The position numbers and the translations under genes were made by a program. Shown piece after piece: positions 1,164-40,675 of a DNA stretch of 63,810 nt. This stretch comes from Lachnospiraceae bacterium (GTDB lineage Bacteria > Bacillota > Clostridia > Lachnospirales > Lachnospiraceae). The stretch covers positions 1 to 63,810 of the forward strand of contig JAJPWX010000113.1 of the NCBI GenBank assembly GCA_021205755.1. The letters run 5' to 3'. The notes below the pieces were generated by a model that was given only the letters and a program-made list of their open reading frames with translations, did not search any database and was not told the origin of the DNA. Every line of letters begins with the position of its first letter. Position 1 is the stretch's first letter.

Positions 1164-1893
1164 TCAAGGGCACTGATTTTCTTTTGACACATAGGGTTTG
1201 CATAGTCGACCGTAGAATGGGCGGTAGATTTCCCGATACAAATCCTGTACGGCGCGGTGCAGCTGTTCCGCTGGTAAATCAATACCAGATCGTCCAATAT
1301 ATAAAATATTATAATCCACGCCAAACAGCAGGCATTTTGTATTCGTCAACACAGCGCCGTTTGAAAGATAAAAATGTATTCGTCTTCGGCGGAGAGTTAC
1401 TTCCTCATCAGTCTTTGCCGTATCAGGACTTTCTGCCTCAATGAAAACACCGTTTTGGGCCGGAAGCTCGTCCTCCAGTTTCTGCAGAAATTCACTGCCG
1501 GTTCCATGACCACGCAGTTCAGGAATCACTGCAAAGTCAAATACCCTCCGGGCATTTGACCCTCGCGGATCTACACTCCGTTCCGGTCGGCGCTAAGCGA
1601 ACGTCCACTGGACGTTCAGCGCCGCCAAATATCCGTGCAAGCACGGCTACTTGGCTCGTTGCTTCGCGGGAATAATCCAGAAGTGCATACATGCCGTCTT
1701 CTGTCAGGATATAGCAGGCATAAGCCAGCAGTTGATCATCGTCATGGTAGCCATAGCTGGCATATTTTCCTTCGCTTGTCATTTTCTCCATGGACGAGTA
1801 CGGTCGACGCTCATTGCGGGGAAAATCCTCTCTGATATGCGCTTTGTATATCTGCTTTAACTCATCCAGTTGCAGCTTTTTTATTTGTTTCAC
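1164..1893 (-). pseudogene. GNAT-family N-acetyltransferase, disrupted by an insert
   Basis: The upstream part (1893 down to about 1673) encodes the N-terminal half and stops its natural reading at MYALLDY. The downstream part (1535 down to 1164) resumes in another frame with FAVIPELRGHGTGSEFL, the acetyl-CoA-binding R/Q-x-x-G-x-G/A signature of GNAT enzymes. In relatives these two segments join directly (LLDY-FAVIPELRG). A hairpin-rich insert of about 137 bp lies exactly between them, shifts the frame and adds a stop, so only two fragments can be made. Apart from the insert both halves look well preserved, which suggests a recent event. Confidence 0.85.
1536..1672 (-). repeat. Hairpin-rich insertion B inside the acetyltransferase gene
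   Basis: The insert holds three palindromes in a row. They are a perfect stem with loop gga at 1536-1560; a nested palindrome at 1589-1623 (outer ggcgct/agcgcc, inner gaacgtcc/ggacgttc, loop agt on the minus strand); and a nested palindrome at 1624-1655 (gccaa/ttggc with inner ccgtgc/gcacgg). A tail beginning gaccgg and containing cggagtgtaga links them. The nested unit at 1589-1623 is identical to the first unit of the block at 40365-40399, and 1624-1655 is identical to insertion A. Its outer 24 bases (1652-1675) recur beside spoIIGA at 42712-42735. Confidence 0.85.
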
Positions 1894-40256: not shown

Positions 40257-40299
40257 GAGAATGTTTTCTTAAGATTATGAACAAATCCAGAACAGCATC

Positions 40300-40354
40300 G
40301 AAATGAAAAAACAGCCTGTGCAGGTTTACCTGCTAAGGGCTGTTTTTTCATTTC
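40300..40354. terminator. Large bidirectional terminator
   Basis: A perfect 17-bp inverted repeat (gaaatgaaaaaacagcc with its complement, 40300-40316/40338-40354) encloses an inner hairpin (gcaggt/acctgc). A- and T-runs on both sides make it work in either direction. It insulates the secreted-protein promoter from the repeat block that follows. Confidence 0.85.
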
Positions 40355-40356
40355 GG

Positions 40357-40587
40357 GATGGGCGGGCGCTGAACGTCCAGTGGACGTTCGCTTAGCGCCG
40401 ACCGAAGTGGAACGGAGACGCCCATCAAGCCACAGGTGCTGAGCGCCAGTGGCGCTCGTTTAGCACCGACCGGAGCGGCAGCGGAGAATAAGACGCGTTA
40501 GCGGCTTATAGCCTGCAAAGCAGGCGTCGCTGGACGTCCAGTGGACGTCCGCTTAGCGACGACCGAAGCGGAGCGTAGACCTGTGGC
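40357..40587 (+). repeat. Multi-hairpin block with three covarying stem-in-stem palindromes
   Basis: Units lie at 40365-40399, 40435-40467 and 40526-40560. Outer arms are ggcgct/agcgcc, ggtgct/agcacc and gtcgct/agcgac. Inner arms are gaacgtcc/ggacgttc, gagcgcc/ggcgctc and ggacgtcc/ggacgtcc. Every change in one arm is compensated in the other, while the loop (agt), the 3' bulge (gctt or gttt) and a tail starting gaccg stay fixed. Unit one is enclosed by gatgggcg/cgcccatc (40357-40364/40419-40426). Units two and three are enclosed by gccacaggt/acctgtggc (40429-40437/40579-40587). Between them lie two more hairpins (ataag/cttat and gcctgc/gcaggc). It lies before ymxH and overlaps no gene. Confidence 0.85.
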
Positions 40588-40675
40588 CTTGCTGTTCGTC
40601 ATTACGTCATCTCCTCACCCTCCGTCACCTCCCACTGTTCTCCGGCATACGATAAAAGAAAAAGGCTGCTTTGCC

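Follow-up and report, generated by a model that had tools for sequence, protein, structure and literature searches.

The window, that is, the whole stretch of 63,810 nucleotides analysed here (contig JAJPWX010000113.1 of a Lachnospiraceae bacterium, assembly GCA_021205755.1), contains at positions 40357..40587 a block of three palindromic units, located at 40365-40399, 40435-40467 and 40526-40560. The third is printed as 40525-40561 by script because one extra flanking pair forms. Each unit displays the layout described in an earlier note on this DNA: an outer stem of 6 bp encloses an inner one of 7 or 8 bp that is capped by the loop AGT, the 3' side carries the bulge GCTT or GTTT, and the tail begins with GACCG. 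Both stems vary among the units with full compensation. The fourth copy reported at 1589-1623 is also present, on the minus strand. With a predicted folding energy of -119.8 kcal/mol (z = -6.57), the block is more stable than any of 200 shuffles. The units stand where the note had placed them, but its coordinates for the block were too short, as a larger element extends over about 40279-40605. The "larger enclosing stems" and "two more hairpins" also mentioned lie outside the repeated palindrome and are arms of this host element.

The host is a degenerate, multi-armed MITE on the plus strand (40279..40605), recognised from folds, from comparison with intact 176-bp copies and from the orthologous locus in other species. 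Its limits are given to within a few bases because its outermost ends have decayed, while its outer stem (40290-40297 with 40590-40597) is still paired. The first arm, H1 (40299..40355), is a long hairpin with an A-rich 5' side and a T-rich 3' side, terminator-like by eye, whose pairs covary in a 34-copy alignment called A4. Arm H2 (40357..40426) has an 8-bp stem, GATGGGCG/CGCCCATC, which reads GATGGGCG-GAA-CGCCCATC in empty host copies. In the window, the GAA-type loop is replaced by a first guest hairpin of 54 nt (40365..40418; 77.1 bits with covariance model R1), composed of the hairpin 40365-40399 and the tail GACCGAAGTGGAACGGAGA. A second guest of 53 nt, belonging to the class with a 7-bp inner stem, occupies 40435..40487 at the edge of host junction H3a, a site that reads CACAGAC-ATATGACG when empty. 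It is followed by the small hairpin H3 (40488..40509) and by H4 (40511..40525, GCCTGC-AAA-GCAGGC), both supported by the fold and by alignment A4. The third guest, of 54 nt (40526..40579; 74.2 bits), sits at the edge of junction H3b, which reads GCAGGC-GGT-CTGCGG in empty copies. All these features lie on the plus strand.

A fourth guest (1570..1623, minus strand) is found outside the MITE, as the middle one of three different palindromes arrayed at 1525-1675. The two unrelated palindromes flanking it are GTCAAATACCC-TCC-GGGCATTTGAC and GCCAAATATCCGTGC-AAG-CACGGCTACTTGGC, the latter with the tail TCGTTGCTTCGCGGG. For the terminal part of the last palindrome of the array (1650-1675), genomes of the genus yield roughly 100 other matches, and the genus thus has further palindrome families. 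Matches to the repeat number 47 in the genome to which the window belongs (4.02 Mb, 136 contigs), window included, and its recurrence here and in relatives greatly exceeds chance. The script extracted 37 units from the own-genome loci and the window, and one (L046) was dropped as a false positive, leaving 36 guest units, including the 4 of the window.

The host element and its IS66-type ends

Intact copies of the host start with GTAACAGTTCAGAACAGCA and end with TGCTGTTCTGAA(C/T)(T/A)GTTAC. They measure 176 bp when empty and near 227 bp when carrying one guest, and consist of the long hairpin H1, the short hairpin H2 and an arm branching into hairpins H3 and H4. With up to two mismatches allowed, the own genome contains the end motif 130 times and the reversed pattern 0 times, and the short end pattern with three mismatches yields 4 matches in the window alone versus 2.29 expected, a chance level. 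Viral contigs match the end pattern in 11 stretches, a number near chance by estimate, the scripted check being for paired ends only.

Target duplications were searched for in 57 non-redundant elements from the loci collected, having paired GTAACAGTTCAGAACAG-type ends 30-420 bp apart. The 8-bp flanks agree at 6 or more of 8 positions in 40/57 elements (2.06 expected with exchanged flanks) and at all 8 in 17/57 (0.05 expected), and 15/57 elements have flanks agreeing at only 1-4 of 8 bases. Among the flank lengths compared, 8 is the only one with a peak in mean identity (0.737 vs 0.363). The paired-end elements fall into several size forms, namely hairpin remnants of 45-64 bp, forms of 109-115 bp with a guest inside, the empty 176-bp form and a 236-bp form. 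The 236-bp relative is present in 8 copies in genome G270, each with two opposed guests, and 7/8 of them are bordered by perfect 8-bp duplications. In the window copy, the ends are decayed and the target duplication is unreadable.

The same ends were also found 1-3.2 kb apart as 6 pairs among the loci searched, with a perfect duplication in one. In Sporofaciens musculi (locus L268), an element of 1817 bp with ends GTAACAGTTCAG... and a perfect AACTTTTT duplication carries a single ORF of 494 aa, which matches Pfam PF03050 (DDE_Tnp_IS66) at 4.2e-19 and scores 137.1 bits against the NCBIfam IS66 model, below the 180-bit cut-off. This element and the host MITE have in common the first 12 bases of their ends and the 8-bp duplication. 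A GTAA start is a hallmark of IS66 family ends, and the IS66-type ends together with the 8-bp duplication place the host as an IS66-family MITE. As far as ends and duplication tell, the host is thus a DDE-type MITE of this family, the decayed window copy itself displaying neither. An IS66 transposase would then move the MITE in the window's genome, the candidate partner being known from Sporofaciens musculi. Among described elements, ISDge4 (IS66 family, ISBst12 group) is reported to have the ends GTGACTACTCAGCA and GTAACTGCTCAGCA and a repeat of 8 bp (PMC12898284), and two IS66 elements appear in a table with the figure 8, taken here as the repeat length (PMC3281130). The host resembles IS66/ISBst12 elements in its GTAAC(A/T)G(T/C)TCAG ends, its 8-bp duplication and its single-gene partner in a related species, whereas it differs from them and from IS-derived MITEs in its conserved, covarying multi-arm fold, with no obvious transposase remnant.

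Alignment A4 displays two-sided changes at 37/50 consensus pairs, and its cells comprise 1594 Watson-Crick, 35 G-T, 69 mismatched and 2 gapped ones. By DNA search, the host was found in 39/47 genomes of the genus and, by covariance model R2, in 49/299 genomes of the family, the own genome being counted in both cases. As R2 scored at most 9 candidates per genome, its copy numbers are minimum values. According to a crude ORF count, the orientation of 36 own-genome copies to the genes is sense for 16, antisense for 8, divergent for 3 and convergent for 2; 3 others overlap an ORF and 4 are undecided. By the same count, 12/36 start at most 10 nt past the stop codon of the preceding gene.

At some loci (L032, L041, L044, L045, L049, L051, L055, L057 and L152), a host copy is followed by a partial second 5' arm of the element, which in several of them has the same private H1 stem sequence as the adjoining copy. 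These partial arms suggest local tandem duplication. Two loci also contain T-box leader matches exceeding the 219 nt of the Rfam model, at 2256-2691 (436 nt) in L051 and at 1202-1545 (344 nt) in L057. The match in L051 is below the gathering score and contains, at 2381-2430, a fragment of the host MITE.

Structure and covariation of the guests

A guest is composed of a palindrome and a tail, and measures 52-55 nt in 118/125 distinct copies. Two alignments of hand-picked copies were built, A2 for the 8-bp inner stem (40/67 distinct copies) and A3 for the 7-bp inner stem (34/58). Paired cells amount to 99.8% in A2 and 99.4% in A3, percentages that are flattered by the source set, filtered for at most one non-Watson-Crick inner pair. 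Covariation reaches 0.331 in A2 (0.127 when shuffled, at most 0.112 for slid structures) and 0.303 in A3 (0.097 when shuffled, 0.068 when slid). The weak measure in A3 is that of further pair types, matched by 43/500 shuffles. Two-sided changes outnumber one-sided ones by 68 to 3 in A2 and by 54 to 3 in A3, together 122 versus 6.

A set of 110 distinct copies collected by pattern only, hence without the pairing filter, has an inner stem that is fully Watson-Crick in 94 copies, versus 7.06 with exchanged arms. Its 822 inner cells comprise 791 Watson-Crick, 10 G-T and 21 mismatched pairs, and its outer cells 635, 3 and 22, respectively, the pattern itself fixing much of the outer 3' arm. In this unfiltered set, G-T pairs (13/1482 cells) are thus fewer than plain mismatches (43).

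The tail forms a mini-hairpin of the type G-Y-loop-R-C. Its inner pair, which is outside the filter, is CG in 29/40 and TA in 11/40 copies of A2, and CG in 28/34, TA in 5/34 and TG in 1/34 copies of A3. In the pattern-only set, it is Watson-Crick in 101/103 copies (82 CG and 19 TA, next to 1 CA and 1 TG), versus about 71 under independence, given that the regular expression for the tail required a purine at this pair and that 7/110 copies did not fit it. The loops are GNA in 79 copies (GGA 50, GAA 28, GTA 1), GNNA in 22 (GGCA 10, GGGA 3, GGTA 3, GACA 3, GGAA 2, GATA 1) and other in 2. As 17/22 four-base loops have a pyrimidine in third place, they are GNNA but not GNRA, which is the RNA loop type. 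GCGNAGC is, for its part, known as an unusually stable DNA mini-hairpin. The guest tail is similar in having GC-GNA-GC, with GT-GNA-AC covariants in addition, and differs in being a conserved part of a dispersed repeat.

The block could also be transcribed and its fold act as RNA, be it a terminator, a 3'-end protector or a small RNA, with compensation reflecting selection on RNA pairing. The deep fold, the two-sided changes at 37/50 host pairs, the terminator-like H1 and the 12/36 host copies lying at most 10 nt from the preceding stop codon are in line with this. G-T pairs are, however, tolerated in RNA and mismatches in DNA, and they make up only 6/1150 guest pairs and 35/1698 host pairs, versus 30/424 in 20 tRNAs of the same loci. 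Rfam 15 gives 0 matches in the window at gathering score and, over four loci, nothing at E<=1 except two T-box leaders. Moreover, host copies lie in several orientations to genes (36 copies), and the 8-bp duplications indicate that the unit moves as DNA. The RNA account is therefore considered improbable, although the element may have a secondary RNA effect. The "RNA element" of the earlier note is not supported as the main reading, in view of the Rfam result, the few G-T pairs and the 17/22 four-base loops that are not GNRA.

The same note had taken compensation to imply selection for pairing. This is one possible reading, but copying of one arm from the other yields the same pattern. Strand switching during replication would rewrite one arm from its partner, so that the hairpin stays perfect while its sequence drifts. 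One-sided intermediates are almost absent (3 in A2 and 3 in A3), as such copying would have it, whereas selection on DNA hairpins, in which G-T counts as a mismatch, predicts the same picture, and the source set of A2 and A3 had been filtered for pairing. Arm copying is accordingly a possible explanation, though held tentatively. Taken together, the near-perfect stem covariation, the few G-T pairs and the covarying GNA/GNNA mini-hairpin of the tail suggest that the guest is a DNA hairpin rather than an RNA, either under selection or rewritten arm from arm.

Occurrence and insertion places of the guests

At least 115 guest stretches were found by a pattern scan of genome contigs. Those listed come from Lachnospiraceae, from genera usually placed there and from unclassified Clostridia, in addition to one from Oscillospiraceae and two labelled "uncultured bacterium". 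Model R1 reveals further copies in relatives. In a sample of the family with a single genome for each species, it matches 173/397 genomes, representing 158/334 genera. At the class level, 26/391 genomes are positive, and 17 of them belong to other families, with 8 family labels among them. R1 rests on 10 pairs and scored at most 14 candidates per genome, so copy numbers are lower bounds. Neither repeat is described in the openly licensed literature searched, nor in Rfam. Hence, from the idea of an undescribed mobile palindrome of Lachnospiraceae, the first part is borne out by the dispersed copies, the filled and empty orthologous sites, the 158/334 genera and the lack of a description in the sources searched, but its restriction to Lachnospiraceae fails with the 17/26 class-level positives outside the family. 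The guest pattern also matched 3 stretches of viral contigs, of which two are identical in sequence and one is no guest, and the phage sequences searched contained no match to the repeat.

The orthologous site of the block was compared in 12 of 29 other loci, which were fetched, the other 17 aligning mostly over the neighbouring gene only. Guests occupy H2, H3a and H3b in the window, H2 and H3b in G021, H3a only in G014 and H3b only in G016, whereas in G007 the host is present without a guest. Partial elements are seen in G015 (H1 alone), G019 (a remnant hairpin) and G009 and G011 (possible remnants); G010 and G012 are without a full element, and G020 and G018 without any element. At this one site, arm H1 also varies between species, both of its sides changing together. 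Guests were probably gained, rather than lost, at the host sites, and this locus with zero to three guests constitutes a ready-made natural experiment.

The host bases replaced by guests vary by site and were read by us as GAA, GAC, GAC and GGT. At H3a, H3b and H1, they lie at helix edges and are partly paired in empty copies, so the proposal that guests enter unpaired bases only is too strong. A fixed insertion chemistry was likewise rejected: as the replaced bases differ by site, no target or clean border is definable. Outside the host, a label set by regular expression that may be imperfect, 6/108 guests have a perfect flanking inverted repeat of at least 6 bp, versus 0.8 expected. At 5 bp or more, the count is 9/108 versus 2.7 expected, and the best of 200 shuffles also gives 9. 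Hairpin loops as a general target were not retained, since the excess concerns a minority of guests and makes no rule.

Some guests stand by themselves, outside any such element, and others are found in genes or in their remains. In L028 (352-2094, minus strand), a guest lies in frame in a GH115 glycosidase gene, to which it contributes about GAACQWQALSTDRSDSGD. By eye, 6/125 copies, out of eight inspected, are in tRNA 3'-half sequence (L178, L219, L255, L259, L274 and L277). In L274, L259, L178 and L255, ARAGORN places an intact tRNA at a distance of up to about 100 nt from the guest; it detects none in L219. In L274 (5495-5864), L259 (112-481) and L178 (5398-5767), the guest stands in a second copy of the tRNA 3' half, located immediately 3' of the intact tRNA gene, and in L274 it takes the place of GT(C) of the variable loop (own reading). 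In L277 (161-275), a minus-strand guest at 222-275 overlaps the end of a tRNA-Pro predicted by ARAGORN at 161-236. A second, MITE-like repeat of about 225 bp, ATGATACCAGGGTCAAAAGG...GTGTATCAT, was found in G316 (L346-L350) with one guest inside; this genome is a single contig and has eight Y1 transposase matches. In G817, a guest variant has a different bulge in the 5 copies read, with shared flanks.

Movement of the guests and the nested reading

The guests could be REP elements moved by a RAYT or by an IS200-type Y1 transposase. They have a REP-like layout, with a short imperfect palindrome, a one-sided bulge and a conserved unpaired flank, and a REP-like distribution, being dispersed, close to gene ends and, for a few, within genes. 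RAYT-like proteins also exist in some relatives, as in L302 (75.2 of the 80 bits of NCBIfam REP_Tyr_transpos). Y1 genes were searched for with PF01797 in the own genome, in 47 genus genomes and in 20 genomes picked for their guests (R1 matches per genome ranging from 4 to at least 14), with 2 matches in the own genome and positives in 25/47 and 12/20 genomes, respectively. The remaining 8/20 guest-bearing genomes (G270, G437, G136, G048, G243, G277, G817 and G643) are those in which Y1 was undetected; three of them are rated 100% complete, one of these, G277, being a single contig, and five are rated 84-99%, such that a missed gene is possible. Besides, only 3/62 stretches around Y1 matches, a few of which overlap, contain a guest-like site, and for the own genome both Y1 genes are assigned to IS200 by score, the stretches of about 3 kb around them being free of guest-like sites. 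Finally, no GTAG or CGTC tag stands beside the guest stem, the conserved flank being GACCG (reverse CGGTC) in alignments A1-A3. With Y1 genes thus lacking a link to the guests, RAYT or IS200 as their mover was rejected and is regarded as rather unlikely. Among the Y1 searches of the own genome and of the 47 genus and 20 guest-bearing genomes, no mobilising enzyme for the guest was found.

REP and BIME sequences associated with RAYTs are, in the portions of the literature used here, likewise short imperfect palindromes in many copies, near gene 3' ends and in some cases within genes (PMC3733652, PMC2817692). Unlike them, the guest has no GTAG/CGTC tag, possesses a 19-nt tail with a GNA mini-hairpin, has no linked RAYT found, is nested in a MITE and is spread in Clostridia. 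CGTC REPs, according to PMC3733652, are apparently also without a linked RAYT. The guest is therefore REP-like by layout and outside the GTAG and CGTC REPs. Rickettsia palindromic elements, as presented in an excerpt of PMC10969869, resemble the guest in that a palindrome can stand in frame in a coding gene, here the GH115 gene, but they are about 150 bp long and frequent in genes, whereas one in-frame case was read here.

Part of the guest spread is carriage by MITEs, as in G270, which requires no enzyme of its own, and the repeat of about 225 bp in G316 perhaps plays the same role. Such carriage does not account for one old MITE having received new guests at several of its sites. For these, a putative enzyme would recognise the guest as folded single-stranded DNA. 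Going further, Clostridia might possess a new class of mobile hairpin, represented by the guests and folded from single-stranded DNA. Its bulged hairpin and its GNA mini-hairpin would be the features by which an enzyme other than HUH/Y1 recognises it and inserts it into the loops and junctions of other elements, such as MITE arms, tRNA halves and terminators, and arm-to-arm copying would keep its stems perfect. In this full form, the proposal is speculative and unlikely.

The preferred reading of the block is that of two nested mobile DNAs, an IS66-moved MITE devoid of genes and three guests of about 53 nt that entered it at different times and in different species, with a probability of about 0.85. 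It is carried by the two layers observed, the ends that intact MITEs display together with 8-bp duplications, the guest polymorphism at one locus and the near-perfect compensation of the stems. In this model, the outer layer would be the gene-less MITE, with four hairpin arms within terminal inverted repeats, mobilised in trans by a single-gene IS66-family transposase that would cut the same ends and duplicate 8 bp of the target. The inner layer would consist of the three guests, each a hairpin-in-hairpin followed by the GACCG tail with its tiny GNA-loop hairpin, which may have entered the MITE at edges of its loops and junctions, on separate occasions and in different species, every entry probably taking the place of 2-3 host bases.

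The presence of the guest in 173/397 genomes of the family, with no enzyme found, reopens the question of a mover of REP-like DNA without RAYT. The MITE ends and target duplications, for their part, supply a testable IS66 partner, and genome annotators would gain a label for a repeat now hidden in "intergenic" sequence.
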